From Sulfobacillus thermosulfidooxidans (lineage in GTDB: Bacteria; Bacillota; Sulfobacillia; Sulfobacillales; Sulfobacillaceae), in assembly GCF_001280565.1 (NCBI RefSeq), contig NZ_LGRO01000001.1, forward strand, positions 682,001-746,000: a DNA stretch of 64,000 nt, read 5' to 3'. Made by a program: the position numbers and the translations under genes. This document shows positions 3-50,979 of the stretch, one piece after another (within the stretch, counting starts at the first letter, position 1; the number at the start of each line of letters is the position of its first letter). The notes under the pieces are model-generated. The model was not told the origin of the DNA. It searched no databases and saw only the letters and a program-made list of their open reading frames with translations.

Positions 3-413
3 GGCCGTCATGGTTGCCTGGAAACATTAGCTTCGGGAACAGCTATACAAAAGGCTGCATTAGAACAAGCCAACCACAGCCCATATCTGAAAAGTCTTTC
101 GGTAATAAATACGTCCGCCGTATTTGAGGGAGCACGACAAGGTGATGAGACCTGTCAATCCATTCTTTTTGAGGCCGGGAAATATTTGGGATTAGGATTG
201 TCATATCTCGTGAATCTTTTTAATCCTCAAGCTTTAATCCTTGGGGGAGGTGTAGTGGTGAACCAACCTAACTGGTTGGACACCATCAAAACATTTACGG
301 CGGACTATAGTATGAAAGATTTGTTTCAAGCTGTTTCCATAAATTTGGCGAAACTCGGAAAGGATTCGGGATTGCAAGGTGCCTTGGCAACGGCCATTAC
401 GAGTCAAGTCTAA
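3..413 (+). CDS. ROK-family sugar kinase/regulator, C-terminal part
   Basis: The open frame enters from the left edge of the window, so the N-terminus with the ATP-binding site is missing. The visible 136 residues begin with the end of the ROK signature (GRHGCLETLASGTAI), which in this family carries zinc-binding cysteines next to the sugar site. A second family hallmark is NPQALILGGGVV, the glycine-rich turn before the C-terminal helices. ROK proteins are mostly gluco-, fructo- or N-acetylhexosamine kinases, or repressors with an added HTH. Without the N-terminus these cannot be told apart. The stop overlaps the end of the convergent proC by three bases. Confidence 0.85.
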   Translation, partial: GRHGCLETLASGTAIQKAALEQANHSPYLKSLSVINTSAVFEGARQGDETCQSILFEAGKYLGLGLSYLVNLFNPQALILGGGVVVNQPNWLDTIKTFTADYSMKDLFQAVSINLAKLGKDSGLQGALATAITSQV

Positions 414-1219
414 GCACGGGTAGGGATGCTGCCCAATTGGGTGGCTCTCTCGCCGGCCGCTTTGAGGGCTTGATGCATGATATCCTGCCACCCGGATTGA
501 TCCAGAACTTTCAACATGGCTTCTGTTGTTCCACCTGGAGAAACAACTTGTTCTACCAATTGTTGCAAACTTTTATTGCTGTCCACTAAGGCTAATTGTG
601 AAGCACCTTGTACCATGTACGCAGCCAGTTCACGGGCTTGATCGGCAGGGATTCCAAGATCTTCCGCAGCCTGAATAATGGATTGTAAGAATACGTAGAC
701 GTAAGCCGGGCCACTTCCATACAAGGCCGTCATGGGATTTAACAGGTGTTCGGGCATTTCCACAACATGCCCTAATAAATTCAAAAGTGATAAAATCCAT
801 TCTTTACGCTCTTCGGATACCTGATCGAAACTAATGCCAGTTACTGAGGTGCCGATTTCTGAACAGATGTTTGGCATGGTGCGAACAATACCTTGGTCCG
901 GCAATAATTGGCGAATTTGGGCAATGGCAATGCCTGCAGCGACCGACAACACGGTTGTGGATGGAGAAATAAAGGGTTTCAATTGAGCAATGGTCGCGAT
1001 CATATCCTTAGGTTTCACGGCCAAGACGACTAAATCGGCATCAATAACCACTTGCGGATCAAATGTCACAACCTTTTGTTCTTCAGCACTCCAACCTTTA
1101 GTTAAATATGTCTTGGAACGGGCTAATACATAGATATCAGCATGTGCGACGCGTAGCCATCTTGAAACAATAGCATGTGCAATATTTCCCGGTCCTACCA
1201 CAACAATTTTTTTGGACAT
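410..1219 (-). CDS. proC: Pyrroline-5-carboxylate reductase
   Basis: A 269-aa enzyme that catalyses the last step of proline synthesis, NAD(P)H-dependent reduction of pyrroline-5-carboxylate. The N-terminal Rossmann turn is VVVGPGNIAHA. The C-terminal ProC signature VVSPGGTTEAML lies near residue 225, and the length is normal for the family. ATG at 1219 is chosen because AGGCAGG lies about 8 bases upstream. A GTG seven codons further out (1240) is possible but would include that ribosome binding site. The gene follows a T-box leader on the same strand whose specifier reads as a proline codon, so it is probably induced when tRNA-Pro is uncharged. Confidence 0.95.
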   Translation of the reverse strand: MSKKIVVVGPGNIAHAIVSRWLRVAHADIYVLARSKTYLTKGWSAEEQKVVTFDPQVVIDADLVVLAVKPKDMIATIAQLKPFISPSTTVLSVAAGIAIAQIRQLLPDQGIVRTMPNICSEIGTSVTGISFDQVSEERKEWILSLLNLLGHVVEMPEHLLNPMTALYGSGPAYVYVFLQSIIQAAEDLGIPADQARELAAYMVQGASQLALVDSNKSLQQLVEQVVSPGGTTEAMLKVLDQSGWQDIMHQALKAAGERATQLGSIPTRA

Positions 1220-1302
1220 CCGTTTTTCCTGCCTTTCCACTCCAAGATTCCCGAAGGTTATCTGATGAAAAATAGGTCATACCGTGCACACTGTTTAGAA
1301 AA

Positions 1303-12214: not shown

Positions 12215-12310
12215 GGGGGTAGTTGGGGGCTTGGTGCCTTCCATGGACTTCAAATCCAATGGCTGGCCTTAGGGGTCAGCGGTAGGTTCGATTCCTACAT
12301 ACTCCCGCCA
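12215..12310 (+). tRNA. selC: tRNA-Sec (anticodon TCA)
   Basis: A 96-nt tRNA with encoded CCA (12308-12310). The anticodon segment GGACTTCAAATCC places TCA at 12250-12252 and is identical to that of classical bacterial selC. Other tRNA-Sec hallmarks are a 6-bp D stem (GGGGGC/GCCTTC) with a tiny loop, a long variable arm CTGGCC-TTAGG-GGTCAG, and T arm GTAGG-TTCGATT-CCTAC. The acceptor stem has one G-T pair, and an eighth pair would be mismatched. The upper anticodon stem is also imperfect. A suppressor tRNA-Ser is excluded by the D arm and anticodon. It implies that selenoproteins are made, but no selA, selB or selD is in the window. Confidence 0.88.
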
Positions 12311-41893: not shown

Positions 41894-41975
41894 ATTGTCA
41901 TAATAGGACTGTATGGCCAAGAAATCAATGAATGCATATGATTCTGGAGAGAAAGATCTCGAGGGGGTTTTTGGC

Positions 41976-42815
41976 GTGGAGTCCAAAATATGGGGATTGC
42001 AAACGAAATTATTGGTGGAACAATATCTGACACAAATGTATCCACAAATCAGTGGTCAGATTACGTTATTCAGCGAAGGATGGGATTACAGAATTTACCT
42101 TACGTCCTCAGAGATGGTCATTAGAGTTCCCAAGAATCCGTGGTCCCAAACGCATTTACAGTATGAAATGGCAAAACTCCATACCCTATCACTTCCATTA
42201 GACATTCCTCATTACATCAAAACATCCGGGGCTTTAGGAGTTTATCCATTCATTTCAGGGAAGGATCTGCGGCGAACCAAACCCACGAATCAGGTAATTC
42301 AACAATTGGCACAGTTTTTGCGCACATTGCATCAGCATACATATCTGCCTCAAAAAATGGTTATCAATCATCATCGCCATCGATGGGCAAAGCGCTTTGA
42401 CCTTTTATACCGGGATACCCAAGAAAAAATTTATCCTTTGCTCAGTATTAAAGAACAGCGGCGCACTAGCCATTATTTTGAACAATTTCTTTATGATATC
42501 TCCCAACTTTCATGGCCGGTATCCCTGATTCATGGAGATCTGACCCCAGAACATATCATTGCGGAGAATGGATTAATCAAAGGCATTATCGATTTTGGTG
42601 ACATGACTGTGGGAGATCCTGCATACGATTTAGCAGGCATTCCTGCCCAGTGGGAAAAAGATGAATTGGCTGCTTATGCTCATCAAATCGATTCGGAAGG
42701 CCATAGATGGTTTTACCGACAAGTGAAGTTCTTACACACGATTTTACATGGTCTTGAGCATGGACACGTGCAAGACGTAGAACAAGCCATCGAAATGTTT
42801 CGGAAGAGTATTTGA
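41976..42815 (+). CDS. APH-family phosphotransferase
   Basis: A 279-aa aminoglycoside-phosphotransferase/choline-kinase-fold protein. The catalytic loop is LIHGDLTPEHII, the metal-binding motif IIDFGDMTVGDPAYDLAG, and the N-lobe has EMVIRVPKN with a possible nucleotide-binding Lys. The substrate is unknown: antibiotic, homoserine, methylthioribose or another small hydroxyl compound. GTG 41976 has GAGGGGG eight bases upstream. An ATG at 41913 would overlap the menF promoter. Confidence 0.83.
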   Translation: MESKIWGLQTKLLVEQYLTQMYPQISGQITLFSEGWDYRIYLTSSEMVIRVPKNPWSQTHLQYEMAKLHTLSLPLDIPHYIKTSGALGVYPFISGKDLRRTKPTNQVIQQLAQFLRTLHQHTYLPQKMVINHHRHRWAKRFDLLYRDTQEKIYPLLSIKEQRRTSHYFEQFLYDISQLSWPVSLIHGDLTPEHIIAENGLIKGIIDFGDMTVGDPAYDLAGIPAQWEKDELAAYAHQIDSEGHRWFYRQVKFLHTILHGLEHGHVQDVEQAIEMFRKSI

Positions 42816-42921: not shown

Positions 42922-42949
42922 TTGTTATTTTTATCACGAATGGTATAGT
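42922..42949 (+). promoter_or_regulatory. Promoter of the ilv-leu operon
   Basis: TTGTTA (42922-42927), 16-base spacer, TATAGT (42944-42949) preceded by TGG (extended -10). The expected start is about 20 bases before the ykkC-class aptamer. Confidence 0.75.
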
Positions 42950-42971
42950 GCTTGTATAACATTTTTCGTCG

Positions 42972-43072
42972 GAGTGTACCTAGGGATCCGCCCATAGTAG
43001 TGGGAAGGACCAAGCGGTACAGGCTCCTTTTAGGAGCTACACCATGGGGATAAAAGACCCGTGGCAGGTTCG
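42972..43072 (+). promoter_or_regulatory. ykkC-class riboswitch, probably ppGpp-sensing (subtype 2a)
   Basis: The conserved ykkC blocks are present in order: CTAGGGATCCG, GGACCAAGCGG, a variable hairpin GGCTCC/GGAGCT, ACACC, then GGGGATAAAAGACCCG and GGCAGG. This RNA class contains guanidine, ppGpp, PRPP and other ligand subtypes. Known ppGpp versions precede branched-chain amino acid genes, often with a T-box, so that ligand is inferred from context. The AAAAGACCC segment is shared with the following terminator, which suggests an ON switch: ligand binding would hold it in the aptamer and allow read-through. Confidence 0.85.
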
Positions 43073-43102
43073 GCAGTAGTTGAACTTGCTCTGGGTCTTT
43101 TT
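43051..43102 (+). terminator. Terminator of the ykkC-class riboswitch
   Basis: AAAGACCC pairs with GGGTCTTT, enclosing GCAGGTTC/GAACTTGC, followed by T residues. The 5' arm overlaps the conserved 3' part of the aptamer. Confidence 0.9.
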
Positions 43103-43104
43103 GT

Positions 43105-43372
43105 GTTACCCAGAGAAAAGTTTCTGCTATGACGGGGAATTATAATCCGTTAACCACTGACAGCGAACCGAGGACGGTGGAAGCTCGGGCTTTGGCCGGA
43201 TTATTGTCTCACCCCTGAGCATGCTTCCCGAGACCGGCACTGACCGGAGGTAGACGAAGCCGGATGAATTCCGTTATCAGTCGCACGAGTCCTCTTTGAA
43301 CGAAGAGGAGAAGTAAGGGTGGTACCACGCAACCGCGTCCCTTTCAGCCGTCACGGCGAAAGGGATTTTTTA
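43105..43372 (+). promoter_or_regulatory. T-box leader of the ilv-leu operon, leucine specifier CUC
   Basis: Stem I can be drawn with ATAATCCG/CGGATTAT above and GGGG/CCCC below the specifier loop. The loop's 3' strand is TGTCTCA, placing CTC (43208-43210) before the usual A, a leucine codon. The antiterminator core AAGGGTGGTACCACGC is at 43315-43330. The terminator (CCCTTTC/GAAAGGG with inner GCCG/CGGC, then T6) is at 43338-43372. Uncharged tRNA-Leu should permit read-through into ilvN. Confidence 0.92.
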
Positions 43373-43398: not shown

Positions 43399-43935
43399 AT
43401 GAATCCATTTATCGGTGTGGAATTGCAAGATAAGCCAGGCGCAATTCAACGGTTGCTGTTAATGCTTGGACAACGGAACGTAGATATTGAACAAATGACC
43501 ATTAAAAAGGACCGGGACACATCACGACTAACTGTTATGATCGGGATTGCAGGCACGCACGAACGAGCGCAATGGATTCGTCGGCAAATGACCCGGCATC
43601 AAGATGTGACCCGCACCTTTATTGTTAAAAATAGTTACCATACAGTGCTTGTTGCTGCAGTGCCGACACAAAAGCCGGCGCATGTTCCTTTAGTATCCGC
43701 GACACCCATTGATTCCCACGCGGGATATTACACAGTCGCAGGGCCAAGGCATGCCATAGAACAGTGGATTGAAGACAATCATGCCCATGTTTTCGCACTA
43801 TTTCCAAGTTGTTTGACACTTAAGATTAGTGACAAAATGCCAAAAAAATCAGTCTACCACACTCGAGGAGGATGGAATCATGAACGCAAAATTATATTAC
43901 GACGACAACGCCGATCTGAGGTGGTTAACCGGTAA
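43399..43935 (+). CDS. ilvN: Acetolactate synthase small (regulatory) subunit
   Basis: 178 aa. The N-terminal ACT domain ([20 protein letters not shown], then [12 protein letters not shown]) binds the feedback inhibitor, usually valine. The second half is a divergent copy of the IlvN/IlvH C-terminal domain. The last 19 codons overlap the start of ilvC in another frame, so the basic tail is poorly conserved sequence. AAGGGGG precedes ATG 43399. Unusually, the catalytic subunit ilvB is four genes downstream rather than adjacent. Confidence 0.86.
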
Positions 43936-44914
43936 AACCGTTGCAGTCATCGGATATGGGAGTCAGGGCCATGCCCATGCATTAAACTTACGCGAGTCTG
44001 GTGTGAACGTGATTATTGGAATTCGGCCGGGACGATCCCGCGACCGGGCGAATGAGCAAGGATTTCAAACCATGGATGTTAAAGATGCAGCCCAGGCCGC
44101 TGATGTCATTCAGATTTTAACGCCAGATCATTTACAAGGGCCCTTATATGAGGAATGCATTAAACCAGGACTCAAACCAGGTAAGGCCTTAGCCTTTGCG
44201 CATGGATTTGCTATCCGGTTTCAACAAATTGTTCCACCTAATGATGTTGACGTTTTTATGGTTGCGCCCAAAGCGCCAGGACATTTGGTCCGAAGGTTAT
44301 ATGTTGAAGGGCAGGGAACTCCGGCACTCGTGGCCGTGGAACAAGATGCGACGGGTCACGCTCTTGATATCGCTCTGGCTTATGCGAAGGGCATTGGAGC
44401 TACACGCGCCGGAGTGATTCAGACCACCTTTGCTGAGGAAACTGAAACAGATTTATTTGGTGAACAAACGGTGTTGTGTGGCGGAGTGTCCCAACTCATC
44501 CAAGCCGGATTTGAGACATTAGTAGAAGCGGGATATCAGCCCGAAATTGCCTATTTTGAAACCCTACATGAATTGAAATTGATTGTTGATCTAATTTATG
44601 AAGGCGGCATGGGAGCCATGTGGTATTCGGTTTCCGATACGGCGGAATATGGCGGGTTAAGTGTGGGACCACGGATTGTAACGCAGGAGACGAAGCAAGA
44701 AATGGCTCAGGTTCTGAAAGACATTCAGGATGGAACCTTTGCGGAACGTTGGATGTCCGAAAATGCCAAAGGACGCCCGGAGTTCAACCGGATGCGACAA
44801 GATGCCCGTGAACATCCCATCGAAACCGTCGGACGCGACTTGCGTTCGATGATGTCGTGGTTGAAACCGTCAGTAGTAGAGGAGGATAGGGTTCAAAAGG
44901 AGGTCAAACCATGA
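43880..44914 (+). CDS. ilvC: Ketol-acid reductoisomerase
   Basis: A 344-aa class I enzyme that rearranges and reduces acetolactate or acetohydroxybutyrate. The N-terminal [17 protein letters not shown] is the nucleotide-binding fingerprint. [12 protein letters not shown], the metal site [12 protein letters not shown] and the C-terminal [17 protein letters not shown] are intact. ATG 43880 follows GAGGAGG. A longer frame from 43829 would lie inside ilvN. It overlaps leuA by four bases. Confidence 0.97.
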
Positions 44915-46440
44915 CAGATACTGTCAGGATATTTGATACAACCTTACGAGATGGAGAACAATCCCCTGGTGTGGCGTTAAGTACCCAAGAAAAATTAGCG
45001 ATTGCTGAACAATTGGCGCGTTTAGGCGTGGATTATTTGGAGGCGGGTTTTCCGCAAGCCTCTCCAGGCGATTTCGAAGCGGTGTCGCGGATTGCGGAAA
45101 ATATTAAAGGCCCTACCATTACAGCATTGGCCCGGTGTAACCGTCAGGACATCGAGCAAGCTGCACGAGCACTAGAAAAAGCAGATAAAGCCAGGATTCA
45201 TGTTTTTATTGCAACCTCCCCGATTCATATGCAAGCGAAATTACGGATGACGCCCGAACAGGTGCTAGAACGCATTGACCAGATGGTGCGGGTTGCCCGT
45301 ATGTATGTGGACGACGTGGAATTTTCATGCGAAGATGCCACCCGGTCCCAAGTCGAATTTTTGGTGCAAGCGGGGCAATTAGCAGTGGACGCGGGAGCGA
45401 CCACACTCAATTTCCCTGATACCGTAGGGTATACCACCCCTCGTGAATATTTTCAGCTCATCACGCATCTCAGAAAGGCCATAGCTGATCCTCGCATTAC
45501 ATTGTCTGTTCATTGTCACGATGATTTGGGCTTGGCCGTTGCGAATTCCTTGTCGGGAATTGAAGCAGGATGTCGGCAGGTAGAAGTGGCGGTTAACGGA
45601 ATTGGTGAGAGGGCGGGGAATGCCTCTTTAGAAGAAGTTGTCATGACGTTAACCGCGAGACAGGACCAATATCATGTCCAACATCACATCAAGACACAAG
45701 AAATCTACCGGGCAAGTCAGTTAGTAAGTCAGTTAACGGGAATGCCGGTACAGCCCAATAAAGCCATTGTGGGCAAGAACGCCTTTCGCCATGAATCCGG
45801 TATTCACCAAGATGGCATGTTAAAAGATCGTTCTACTTATGAAATCTTAACGCCTGAAGCCGTCGGTTGGGGTATGACCAAACTTGTGTTAGGCAAGCAT
45901 TCAGGTCGTCATGCGTTGCGTCAACGTTTAGAAGAATTAGGACTTCATGCCACTCCCAGCCAAATCGACCAGATCCAGCAGCGCGTGAAAGCGTTAGGAG
46001 AACTGAAGAATGATATTAACGATCAGGACTTGGAAGCAATCTGGCAAGAAGAAGTCGGGCAAGTTCGCCGATCACGGCATACGGAATTAGTTCATTGGCA
46101 AGTCAGTACAGGAAGTCATAATCGACCTGTGGCCTATGTTTCCGTCCGCGTTGGCCAAGAAATTCGAGAGGACTCTGGGAGTGGCGATGGGCCTGTACAT
46201 GCTCTCTTTCAAGCTTTTTCTCGTGCCTTGTCGCTGGATCATGTGCAATTAACTTCTTATCATCTGGCACCGATTTCACCTGGAGAAGCGGGACTCGCCT
46301 CAGTACGTGTCGAAATTCATGGATATGATTGCGAAACCCGGGGTCAAGCCGCAGATAGTGATGTGATGAAGGCCACCGCTGTGGCGCTTCATGAGGCCTT
46401 AGCTTATCTCTTTGAGCGGGCCCAAAATGTCGTGGCATAA
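44911..46440 (+). CDS. leuA: 2-Isopropylmalate synthase
   Basis: 509 aa. It condenses ketoisovalerate with acetyl-CoA, the committed step to leucine. The DRE-TIM barrel opens [16 protein letters not shown]. Metal and substrate motifs are [15 protein letters not shown] and [15 protein letters not shown]. The linker carries [18 protein letters not shown], split by family into two signatures, and [10 protein letters not shown]. The C-terminal regulatory domain for leucine feedback is present from about residue 390. AGGAGGTC lies before the ATG. Confidence 0.97.
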
Positions 46441-46466: not shown

Positions 46467-47549
46467 ATGGCGAATCACCAACTTTTAGTTTTGGCGGGAG
46501 ACGGTATCGGACCAGAAGTGACAGGCGCTGCATTACAAGTGCTCGAGAGGGTGGCTGAAATTGGGGGATGGGTTGTTGAAATCGAACGCGCCGATATTGG
46601 CGGATCTGCGATAGATGCTTATGGGGATCCATTTCCAGAAAAAACGCAACGGGCTATCGACAAATCCTCCGCAGTGTTGTTAGGAGCCGTCGGTGGACCC
46701 AAATGGGATCAGGCCCCCAAAAGACCTGAGGCTGGTCTCCTCGCGATGCGTCAATACATGGGATTATGGGCAAATTTGCGTCCCTATCACATTTTTAAAG
46801 GGTTAGAGCATCTTTCGCCATTACGCAAGACCCATGTTGATGGCATCATTTTTCGGGAACTCACGGGAGGATTGTATTTTGGTGAGCCCCGAGGGCGCCG
46901 GTTTTTGCCGGGCGATCTCGAAGTGATTGACACCTTGCAATATCGGCGCTCGGAAATGTGGCGCATTATCAAATTGGCTTTTGAGTATGCACGAGACCAT
47001 CACCTGACCTTAACATCTGTTGATAAGGCTAATGTTTTAGAAAGCTCACGGGTATGGCGTGAAGTGACTGATGAATTGTCCAAGCAATTTCCCGATGTGC
47101 CGGTTGTTCACCGTTATGTTGATGCCGCCGCTATGGATTTAGTTTTGAACCCCGACCGGTACCAAGTCATCGTGACGGAAAACTTGTTTGGCGATATCCT
47201 TAGCGACTTGGCGGGAGGCTTAGTGGGTTCATTAGGACTTCTCGGTTCGTCATCCGTGGCTGGCACGCCTGGAACACGGGGGCTATTTGAGCCGGTACAC
47301 GGCTCGGCACCGGACATTGCGGGAAAAGGTATCGCCAATCCGACAGGTGCAATGTTATCCCTAGCCTATCTCGTAGGGTGGAGTTGGTCAGAGACAGAAG
47401 CCCAACAGTTGATTGAATCAGCGGTGGCTGAAAGCTTGGCGGAAGGACCACATACGCCTGACTTGGGAGGGAGTGCCAGCACCGAAGAATTTACCGATTC
47501 GGTCATACAACGTCTTGAACACATTTGGCAAAGGAGGAAGATATCATGA
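46467..47549 (+). CDS. leuB: 3-Isopropylmalate dehydrogenase
   Basis: 360 aa. NAD-dependent oxidative decarboxylation of 3-isopropylmalate. Motifs are LAGDGIGPEVTGAAL at the N-terminus, LLGAVGGPKWD, FRELTGGLYFGEPRG, SVDKANVLESSR, and the signature NLFGDILSDLAGGLVGSLGL. AGGAGGAT precedes ATG. leuC and leuD, the isomerase needed between LeuA and LeuB, are not in the window. Confidence 0.97.
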   Translation: MANHQLLVLAGDGIGPEVTGAALQVLERVAEIGGWVVEIERADIGGSAIDAYGDPFPEKTQRAIDKSSAVLLGAVGGPKWDQAPKRPEAGLLAMRQYMGLWANLRPYHIFKGLEHLSPLRKTHVDGIIFRELTGGLYFGEPRGRRFLPGDLEVIDTLQYRRSEMWRIIKLAFEYARDHHLTLTSVDKANVLESSRVWREVTDELSKQFPDVPVVHRYVDAAAMDLVLNPDRYQVIVTENLFGDILSDLAGGLVGSLGLLGSSSVAGTPGTRGLFEPVHGSAPDIAGKGIANPTGAMLSLAYLVGWSWSETEAQQLIESAVAESLAEGPHTPDLGGSASTEEFTDSVIQRLEHIWQRRKIS

Positions 47550-49213
47550 CTGGAGCAGAATTAACCTGGGAAGTGTTATCACGATTAGGTACCACGGTTG
47601 TGTTTGGAGTTCCTGGTGGTGCAATTTTGCCGTTGGTTGACGCGTTAGCGACACGTCAAAATGATCCCATTGAATTTGTGGTTTCTCGCCATGAAGCGGC
47701 ATCCATCCATGCAGCGGACGGCTATGCACGAGTAACAGGAAAACCGGCTATCGTTTTGGCAACCTCTGGACCTGGCGGCACCAATGTCATTACCGGACTG
47801 GTCACGGCTATGACGGATTCCGTGCCGATAGTCCTGGTTTTAGGGCAAGTACCGACAACGTTAATCGGGACTGATGCTTTTCAAGAAGCTGACTTGTTTA
47901 GTATGACGATGCCCGTTGTTAAACACAGTTGGCGTATTACGGAACCCCAAGAAGTGGCCGATGTTCTGCTGCAAGCATGGGAGACGGCGCGTAGCGGACG
48001 TCCGGGGCCAGTTGTTGTCGAGTTCCCGAAAAATATTCAATTCATGCAATGCCCGGAATGGAAGGGATTGCCTGCAACCAACGCATCTGAAATCGAATGG
48101 GAAGAAAAGCCGATTACATGGGCACGAGCGAAGTCCTATTTGCGTTCGGCTTCTCGGCCGTTACTGTATGTGGGTGGAGGAGTCGTCTCTAGTGGCACGC
48201 AAGATTATGTCATGCAATTTGCAGAAACTTATGATTGCCCGGTTGCACACACCTTAATGGGCATCGGAGCCTTTCCTAGTACACATCCCAAGGCATTGGG
48301 GATGTTAGGCATGCATGGGACCTGGTATGCTAACAATGCTATGCAACATGCCGATTTAGTTATTGCGCTAGGGGCGCGATTTGATGATCGGGTCACAGGT
48401 AAACTAGATGAGTTTGCGCCTAACGCACGGATTATTCATGTCGATGTGGATGCCGCCGAATTAAGCAAGTTGGTTCGGCCCAACGTTGCTATTCATGGAG
48501 ATTTACGGCGCGTTTTACCGAAAATGCTGAAAATCGTACCGAATACGACGCATTCTGAATGGTGGGATACTATTAATCAGTGGAAAGCGTCTCACCCGTT
48601 ACGGATTAATCCGGCGCCCGAAGGCACCATTGCCTCTCCCGCGGTGATGCAGGTCATCAACCGTCATTTACGACCCGATGACATTGTGGTAACCGAGGTG
48701 GGACAACATCAAATGTGGGGAGCGCTCTTTCTCCGCCGGGAAAAGCCTCGCACGTTTCTTACCTCGGGTGGTGCGGGAACCATGGGATATGGGTTTCCAG
48801 CCGCTATGGGTGCGCAATTTGCTGCAGGCAATAATCGCGTCATTTTAATTGCTGGAGATGGGAGCTTCCAAATGAATCTCCAAGAGTTAGCTACCGTCGT
48901 TCAATACAACATTCCTATCTGGATGATTGTTTTGAACAATGAGGGTCACGGTATGGTACGGCAATGGCAAGATCTTTTTCATGGCAAACGCCGTATTGGT
49001 GTGGACTTGGTGAATCCCGATTTTGTCCGATTAGCTGAGTCCTTCGGTATTCATGGATTTAGTGTGAATTCTGAAGAGGCGTTAGACGAAGCTTTGCGCA
49101 TTATGGAGTCCATTAATGGCCCGGTATTGTTGGAAGTAATGGTCCCCAAAGATGAGCATGTATTTCCCATGGTCCCTGCTGGGCAACCATTGTCGATGGT
49201 GCTAGAAGGTTAA
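47546..49213 (+). CDS. ilvB: Acetolactate synthase large subunit
   Basis: A 555-aa ThDP/FAD enzyme that makes acetolactate and acetohydroxybutyrate. The catalytic Glu is in VSRHEAASIHAADGYAR. RPGPVVVEFPKNIQ, GARFDDRVTGKLDEF and the ThDP motif GDGSFQMNLQELATV to NNEGHGMVRQWQ are intact. ATG 47546 has AAAGGAGG eight bases upstream and overlaps the leuB stop by four bases. It is separated from its regulatory subunit gene by ilvC-leuA-leuB. Confidence 0.96.
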   Translation: MTGAELTWEVLSRLGTTVVFGVPGGAILPLVDALATRQNDPIEFVVSRHEAASIHAADGYARVTGKPAIVLATSGPGGTNVITGLVTAMTDSVPIVLVLGQVPTTLIGTDAFQEADLFSMTMPVVKHSWRITEPQEVADVLLQAWETARSGRPGPVVVEFPKNIQFMQCPEWKGLPATNASEIEWEEKPITWARAKSYLRSASRPLLYVGGGVVSSGTQDYVMQFAETYDCPVAHTLMGIGAFPSTHPKALGMLGMHGTWYANNAMQHADLVIALGARFDDRVTGKLDEFAPNARIIHVDVDAAELSKLVRPNVAIHGDLRRVLPKMLKIVPNTTHSEWWDTINQWKASHPLRINPAPEGTIASPAVMQVINRHLRPDDIVVTEVGQHQMWGALFLRREKPRTFLTSGGAGTMGYGFPAAMGAQFAAGNNRVILIAGDGSFQMNLQELATVVQYNIPIWMIVLNNEGHGMVRQWQDLFHGKRRIGVDLVNPDFVRLAESFGIHGFSVNSEEALDEALRIMESINGPVLLEVMVPKDEHVFPMVPAGQPLSMVLEG

Positions 49214-49255
49214 GATGGGATATCGCAAGAGATGCATATACAGGAGGCGCGCACA

Positions 49256-50155
49256 ATGAGTGAACTAAAAATCTTCTTCAACGGGGCCATGGTACCCGCC
49301 GCGGAAGCACGTGTGTCCGTATTCGATCATGGGTTTCTTTATGGGGACGGCATCTTTGAAGGCATTCGGGCCTACGAAGGCCGTGTATTTAAATTAGAAG
49401 AACACTTAGACCGTTTATTTGATTCCGCGAAAAGTATCCTATTAGATATTCCCTATACACGCGAAGAACTTGCAGAAGCTGTCTGTCAGACCGTTCGCGA
49501 GAACGGTCTGACAGATGCCTATATTCGTCTAGTCGTATCCCGCGGTCCGGGGGATTTAGGTTTGGATCCAACGAAATGTTCTCAGCCCAGCGTCATTATT
49601 ATCGCTGATCGCATTAAATTATATCCCGAGGAACTTTATCAACGTGGCTTAGAATTAGCGGCGGTATCGACGAGGCGTCCGGCTACGGATGTTTTAAATC
49701 CCTCCATAAAATCTTTAAATTACTTAAATAATATTTTGGCCAAGATTGAGGCTAATTTGCGCGGACTTCCCGAAGTCGTACTGCTTAATCACCAGGGTTA
49801 CGTGGTGGAAGGAACGGGCGACAATATTTTTATTGTTCGCCAAGGGGTCTTGATTACTCCCCCAACCTATGCAGGAATTCTTAATGGAATAACCCGCCAG
49901 GTTGTGATCGCTTTAGCGCGAGAGATGGGGATAACTTGCCGGGAAGAAAACATCACATTGCATGACTTATATACGGCCGATGAATGTTTCTTAACTGGAA
50001 CGGCTGCGGAAGTAATTCCGGCTGTGATGTGTGACGGACGTGTCATTGGCACGGGCCATGTGGGCCCCATAACGGCTAAAGTGCTGACCGCCTTTCGGGA
50101 CTATTCTCGGTCTTCGGGTGTTCCGGTATATGACACGGATGTGGCGACTGCATGA
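49256..50155 (+). CDS. ilvE: Branched-chain amino acid aminotransferase (class IV)
   Basis: A 299-aa fold-type IV PLP enzyme that transfers the amino group to the keto acids of Leu, Ile and Val. FDHGFLYGDGIFEGIRAYEG is typical of short IlvE, in two overlapping signatures. The PLP Lys lies in NPSIKSLNYLNNILAK, and EGTGDNIFIVRQG and GITRQVVIALAREMG bind cofactor. ATG 49256 follows CAGGAGG. D-amino acid transaminases share this fold, but the operon supports IlvE. The pheA start overlaps its stop by four bases. Confidence 0.93.
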   Translation: MSELKIFFNGAMVPAAEARVSVFDHGFLYGDGIFEGIRAYEGRVFKLEEHLDRLFDSAKSILLDIPYTREELAEAVCQTVRENGLTDAYIRLVVSRGPGDLGLDPTKCSQPSVIIIADRIKLYPEELYQRGLELAAVSTRRPATDVLNPSIKSLNYLNNILAKIEANLRGLPEVVLLNHQGYVVEGTGDNIFIVRQGVLITPPTYAGILNGITRQVVIALAREMGITCREENITLHDLYTADECFLTGTAAEVIPAVMCDGRVIGTGHVGPITAKVLTAFRDYSRSSGVPVYDTDVATA

Positions 50156-50979
50156 TTGACGGAACAGTCATTTATTATCAGGGGTCTCCGGGCGCCTTTA
50201 GTGAGGCGGCCATTCTGTCGCATTGGCCCCATGCGATTCCTCAAGGGTTTCCTACGTTTGCCGAGACATTCCAGGCATTGCAAGACAATCCCAATGCGGT
50301 GGGGTTATTGCCCATTGAAAATGCCTACCGTGGACCTGTCTACGATGTGTTAGATTTACTAACCGCCTCAACCCTGTCCATTTGGGCTGAGGCGGTTCAA
50401 CCCGTTGAATTGGCATTAATGGCGTATGGCCATTCCGATTTGTCCCGTATTAAAAAGGTTCGTTCTCATCCCCAAGCCTTAATGCAGAGTCAAATGTTTT
50501 GCCGTGAGCATGGACTTATAGTAGAAGTGGCGTTAGACACTGCTGGCAGCGCCAAGGAATTGTTAGAATCCCGGAGAGAAGATATTGGAGCAATTGCTAG
50601 TCCCAGAGCTGCTGAAATTTATGGCCTCAATATTGTACGACGAGGAATTCAGGATCATCCGGATAACCGTACACGATTTTGGCTATTGAGTCAGCGACCG
50701 ATTCATCTCACATCCCCATTGAATCGGATGAAGACAAGTGCGGTGTTTGATTTACCAGATAAACCAGGGGCTTTAGTGAATTATTTGCTATGGTATAAGA
50801 AATTTGGGCTAAATCTCTCGAAGGTCGAATCGCGGCCAAGACCTGGCGCACCATTTGCATACCGCTTTTGGATTGATGTTGTGGGAGATGCCCCAAGCCT
50901 CGATCAGGCTTGGGAAAGTGGCCTGTCTGACTTGGAATGGTTTAGACGGTTGGGGACTTATCCTGTTTTGAGTGAATGA
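50152..50979 (+). CDS. pheA: Prephenate dehydratase
   Basis: 275 aa. Converts prephenate to phenylpyruvate for phenylalanine. The catalytic domain starts YYQGSPGAFSEAAI, with GLLPIENAYRGPVYDVLDLL and the TRFW motif (DNRTRFWLLSQ) near residue 180. The C-terminal ACT domain (FDLPDKPGALVNYLLWYKKF, then LNLSKVESRP) senses phenylalanine. The overlap with ilvE (ATGA) places it in the leucine T-box-controlled operon. IlvE could also transaminate phenylpyruvate. Confidence 0.94.
   Translation: MIDGTVIYYQGSPGAFSEAAILSHWPHAIPQGFPTFAETFQALQDNPNAVGLLPIENAYRGPVYDVLDLLTASTLSIWAEAVQPVELALMAYGHSDLSRIKKVRSHPQALMQSQMFCREHGLIVEVALDTAGSAKELLESRREDIGAIASPRAAEIYGLNIVRRGIQDHPDNRTRFWLLSQRPIHLTSPLNRMKTSAVFDLPDKPGALVNYLLWYKKFGLNLSKVESRPRPGAPFAYRFWIDVVGDAPSLDQAWESGLSDLEWFRRLGTYPVLSE

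Follow-up and report, generated by a model that had tools for sequence, protein, structure and literature searches.

What signals control the branched-chain amino acid (BCAA) genes of Sulfobacillus thermosulfidooxidans, and how are they combined? In the window, i.e., the whole stretch of 64,000 nucleotides analyzed here, a phosphotransferase gene (41913-42815) is followed by a leader of ~450 bases, behind which an ACT-domain gene starts at 43399. The original prediction had read this leader as a ykkC-class riboswitch, probably for ppGpp, followed by a leucine T-box, each with its own terminator, that together control an ilv-leu operon. Our analysis makes it highly probable that the leader holds two transcription-attenuation switches in series that require both the starvation alarm signal ppGpp and uncharged tRNA-Leu, which amounts to AND logic. 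Both RNA elements are located between a conserved promoter-like site, whose exact pattern TTGTTATTTTNNNNACGAATGGTATAGT recurs at the equivalent position in relatives of the window's genus, and the genes for an ilvN-like protein, ilvC, leuA, leuB, ilvB, and ilvE (Table 1). The BCAA genes thus directly follow the leader, in agreement with the proposed control of ilv-leu. Two features of this operon deserve mention. The first gene product is only distantly IlvN-like (27 bits vs. a cut-off of 119), so that the usual IlvN small subunit may have been replaced by a divergent one. Furthermore, ilvE shares its last 4 bases with pheA, and the transcript of the BCAA genes may therefore include this gene for phenylalanine synthesis.

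Table 1. Features of the leader and the downstream genes (positions refer to the window).
Feature	Position	Strand	Basis
Promoter-like site, TTGTTA - 16 nt - TATAGT, TG ahead of -10	42922-42949	+	Sequence pattern, recurs in relatives
ykkC subtype-2a-like (ppGpp) aptamer, P0 helix 42968-42973 with 43069-43074	42968-43074	+	Rfam, covariation, covariance model
C-A-C ahead of P3; C43040 is the C75 equivalent	43040-43042	+	Sequence comparison, role from PMC6031431
Intrinsic terminator 1, shares the P3 and P0 3' strands with the aptamer	43052-43102	+	
P3 3' strand CCC-G-UGG, without G96 of PRPP aptamers	43058-43064	+	Sequence comparison, marker from PMC6031431
T-box leader (Rfam model span; leader to end of terminator 2 is 43120-43371)	43120-43345	+	RF00230, 68.7 bits, E 8.5e-15
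Specifier codon CTC (Leu)	43208-43210	+	
T-box antiterminator with GGTGGTACC core at 43318-43326; UGGU faces tRNA end ACCA	43315-43343	+	
Intrinsic terminator 2 (T-box terminator) with T tract	43337-43371	+	
ilvN-like ACT-domain protein, resembles acetolactate synthase small subunit, below NCBIfam cut-off	43399-43878	+	
ilvC, ketol-acid reductoisomerase	43880-44914	+	
leuA, 2-isopropylmalate synthase	44911-46440	+	
leuB, 3-isopropylmalate dehydrogenase	46467-47549	+	
ilvB, acetolactate synthase large subunit	47525-49213	+	
ilvE, branched-chain aminotransferase	49232-50155	+	
pheA, prephenate dehydratase, 4-base overlap with ilvE end	50152-50979	+	

A default Rfam scan with curated cut-offs lists neither the aptamer nor the T-box at this locus. 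It is blind to both elements because their scores fall under the respective gathering cut-offs (63 for RF00442 and 93 for RF00230). In a permissive scan, the first element matches RF00442 (ykkC/Guanidine-I) at 42969-43069 with 38.5 bits (E 2.3e-5). These low scores reflect divergence and not chance, given that 10 of the 14 T-boxes in the genome, including the one at this locus, remain under the cut-off of 93. Consistently, a covariance model built from non-family aptamers alone detects the aptamer of the window with 66.8 bits (E 4e-13). Across 16 related sequences, its 31 pairs are formed in 93.4% of cells and 14 of them have changed on both sides, with the caveat that the alignment contains the structure's own reference sequence, which favors the structure in the percentage but much less so in the double changes. 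No shuffled control reaches the real values, and controls in which the alignment was slid drop to 28-47%. The six pairs of the P0 end helix are formed in 96.6% of cells and four of them show changes on both sides. RNAalifold did not recover P0 from the non-family ppGpp set, which makes our model R2 weaker than model R1. Together with the conserved blocks, the paired positions establish the element as a member of the ykkC class. Its predicted borders (42972-43072) turned out too narrow, since the aptamer extends over 42968-43074 once P0 is counted.

The second element was recognized correctly as a leucine T-box with a CTC specifier. Its RF00230 match covers the full length of the model, though under the curated cut-off, and all expected parts are present: a stem I with the specifier, an antiterminator with the GGUGGUACC core, and a terminator. 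The genome encodes the cognate tRNA-Leu(GAG) at G000:C1:1730478-1730559, which can read CTC and whose gene ends in CACCA, fitting the UGGU of the antiterminator bulge. The CTC specifier is kept in all nine tandem loci of the family that we inspected. A long Rel/Spo homologue, i.e., a ppGpp synthetase, is encoded in the same genome as well (845 bits), so that the cell can contain both signals. Elsewhere in the window, a second T-box at 1319-1520 on the minus strand (66.6 bits, below the cut-off) is probably a proline T-box because the gene downstream of it (410-1240, minus strand) encodes a pyrroline-5-carboxylate reductase, and a selenocysteine tRNA gene is found at 12215-12306 (64.5 bits).

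Each of the two sensors overlaps a terminator of its own, so the leader has two separate expression platforms as had been proposed. Terminator 1 is a strong hairpin (about -28 to -31 kcal/mol) with a T-rich tail (7 T in 9), and its segment folds far better than shuffled sequences (z -5.1). Its left arm is made from aptamer sequence, namely the strands of the P3 loop, P3, and P0, and AAAAGACCCG in the aptamer pairs with TGGGTCTTTT in the terminator. The predicted reuse of aptamer sequence by the terminator is therefore real, but it begins at AAAAGACCC and not at GAT as first suggested. Because terminator 1 uses strands of the aptamer, the two structures are mutually exclusive, and ligand binding should therefore turn the operon on. 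Terminator 2 is also stable (-18.5 kcal/mol, 8 T in 9). From the overlap of terminator and sensor, both elements would be ON switches.

The following chain of events, from ligand binding through read-through to the resulting logic, is what we infer from these parts. Without ppGpp, terminator 1 would capture the P3 and P0 strands at their 3' side and RNA polymerase would halt near 43102, while bound ppGpp would keep P0 and P3 closed, block the terminator hairpin, and let the polymerase proceed. The T-box would then read tRNA-Leu(GAG) through its CTC specifier. If this tRNA is uncharged, it would stabilize the antiterminator and carry the polymerase past terminator 2, and if it is charged, transcription would stop near 43371. 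With two ON switches in series, the operon would be fully on only when high ppGpp coincides with uncharged tRNA-Leu, i.e., the arrangement would behave as an AND gate.

The most serious alternative to such a gate departs from it in the shape of the response and not in the parts. If both serial terminators are leaky, they may instead form a graded, multiplicative brake that responds to leucine and general starvation without a sharp AND. Uncharged tRNA raises ppGpp via Rel. The two inputs are therefore linked, and the cell may not use this leader as a strict AND. This physiological coupling favors a graded brake, as do the T tracts behind terminator 1, which are variable and, in some species of the genus, imperfect. 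In the window, however, each of the two terminators is strong with regard to both hairpin stability and T tract, and we thus consider the graded brake unlikely, though with a real chance of being correct.

A different question is whether the first aptamer senses ppGpp at all, since ykkC aptamers of subtypes 2a (ppGpp) and 2b (PRPP) are nearly identical. The PRPP riboswitch (PMC5912903, PMC6031431) shares with the aptamer of the window its fold, P0, and the blocks CUAGGG, GGACC, ACACC, and GGGAUAAAAG, and the latter scores even higher on a PRPP-type model (77.3 bits) than on a ppGpp-type model (66.8 bits). Separating the two ligands by whole-model score fails, including for the control element of Sulfobacillus acidophilus (69.4 bits for the ppGpp type and 67.4 bits for the PRPP type), and the subtype assignment consequently rests on position 96, a close homologue, and the gene context. 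A G at position 96 marks PRPP aptamers, whereas in ppGpp aptamers this position is A, C, or U or is missing altogether; the residue pairing with the guanine base of ppGpp is C75 (PMC6031431). In all seven PRPP-type sequences that we compared, position 96 is an invariant G, and the P3 3' strand reads CCC-R-G-N and continues with GGGUAGGU. The CCC-G-UGG of the window is two bases shorter than this strand and lacks both the corresponding G and GGGUAGGU. Nearly the entire Sulfobacillus family has CCC-G-UGG together with C75, while other ppGpp-type sequences of the class have CCC-G-A-G-CGG or one base fewer, from which it follows that the S-turn base is absent in the Sulfobacillus family.

The homologue is the only 2a-like element (L101) of S. 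acidophilus DSM 10332, a genome that we identified by its second contig, a plasmid with a 100% match to CP003180.1. It has the same core as the window's aptamer, with identity at 91 of 114 alignment columns, and the two loci further share the CCC-G-UGG strand, P0, a terminator of their own, a T-box downstream, and the position before ilvC; their differences concern P0 pairs, the tips of hairpins, and a single P3 purine. S. acidophilus DSM 10332 is the organism of the ppGpp-bound crystal structures 6DMC and 6DME (Peselis and Serganov 2018, as cited in PMC10112252 and PMC10687018), and as the only candidate in this genome L101 would be the RNA that was crystallized. Since the genes downstream of the aptamer in the window are moreover BCAA and not purine genes, we regard PRPP as a very improbable ligand. 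The retained C75, the missing G96, the core shared with S. acidophilus, and the BCAA genes instead all point to ppGpp, as originally predicted, making it the putative ligand on grounds of sequence, homology, and gene context.

It is hardly credible at all that this aptamer represents an ordinary guanidine-I riboswitch, even though RF00442 with its name Guanidine-I is the sole ykkC family matching in Rfam and the overall ykkC architecture is common to both, because the aptamer does not reach the guanidine-I score that would have spoken against the original prediction (38.5 bits vs. the cut-off of 63), whereas the true guanidine-I element of the same genome reaches 86.5 bits (at G000:C1:1933770), because guanidine-I RNAs lack the P0 helix seen in the window (PMC6031431) and differ at their 3' end (CCUGGGAGA), and because ykkC RNAs upstream of BCAA genes did not bind guanidine (PMC7266159). 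Guanidine is thus excluded more firmly than PRPP. As Rfam names the ykkC family Guanidine-I, aptamers for ppGpp or PRPP can be reported as guanidine switches, e.g., in a 2025 survey that labels T-box tandems ahead of ilv-leu genes as guanidine-I (PMC12452182). Surveys based on Rfam either miss elements like the one described here or label them in this way.

Tandems of a ppGpp riboswitch and a T-box are indeed already known, as the original prediction had stated. A ppGpp riboswitch/T box-Leu tandem was shown by Sherlock et al. 2018 (PMC5912903 Fig. 6C), the AND reading of these tandems has been in print since then (PMC5912903; also PMC9481103), and 31 of them were tabulated in 2022, 15 with the ppGpp riboswitch first and 16 with the T-box first (PMC9481103 Table 2). 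The leader in the window has no essential difference from the published tandem and resembles it in both elements, the leucine specificity, the separate platforms, the BCAA genes, and the order of ppGpp riboswitch before T-box. It is a new or unlisted example of a known tandem type, which is a modest surprise, and may already be among the 31 tabulated cases. Its value lies in offering a clean natural example of a two-input RNA gate that lends itself to testing and is close to an RNA with a solved ppGpp-bound structure, which makes the long-predicted AND logic directly testable in vitro.

Beyond the window, model R1 was applied to 154 genomes of the class and finds the aptamer in 81; within the family, it does so in 22 of the 34 genomes searched. 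All 22 of these family genomes carry a T-box directly downstream on the same strand with ilvC just behind it, i.e., the order of the elements is fixed across the family. Within the window's genus, a terminator separates aptamer and T-box in all six loci parsed plus a seventh (L098), and the same is true for S. acidophilus and for six of seven genomes of genus g6. In three sister genera (g2, g3, and g11), a terminator search across seven genomes found no intrinsic terminator between the two elements (L108, L094, L100, L087, L088, L090, and L092), whereas the T-box terminator is present in all genomes parsed. The AND gate of serial terminators is therefore not universal. As a single clade accounts for six of these seven sequences and several of them belong to metagenome assemblies, they offer little independent evidence; in the ilvC tree, g3 and g11 form a single clade (96/98), and one or two losses of the terminator are needed overall.

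What takes the place of terminator 1 differs between these genera. Aptamer and T-box are just 16 bases apart in g2, while the spacer of g3 and g11 folds into two hairpins that lack a T tract: the first is an anti-aptamer hairpin, and the second has an invariant left arm, GUGGGGC, whose partner varies yet still pairs. Pairing of this spacer with the base of T-box stem I was considered and dropped because by eye it comprises just three to four pairs that are not conserved. The aptamer core is retained in all three genera, which suggests that these aptamers are still in use. If they are functional, ppGpp could possibly act through the single terminator of the T-box, through pausing, or through Rho. 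Such a shared-platform form of the tandem, in which ppGpp takes another route, is a tentative and rather doubtful proposal. It is not described in the published accounts of ppGpp/T-box tandems that we examined and does not apply to the copy in the window, which has both terminators. A fixed tandem order that nevertheless permits loss of the ppGpp terminator in some genera would shed light on the evolution of tandem gates. Another variation on this theme is found in a genome of the same class (G049), where locus L112 (identical to L030; 1515-1938) combines a ppGpp-type aptamer and terminator with a T-box followed by an ilvN gene, and where the specifier, read by eye from the alignment, looks like GTC (Val) and not CTC.
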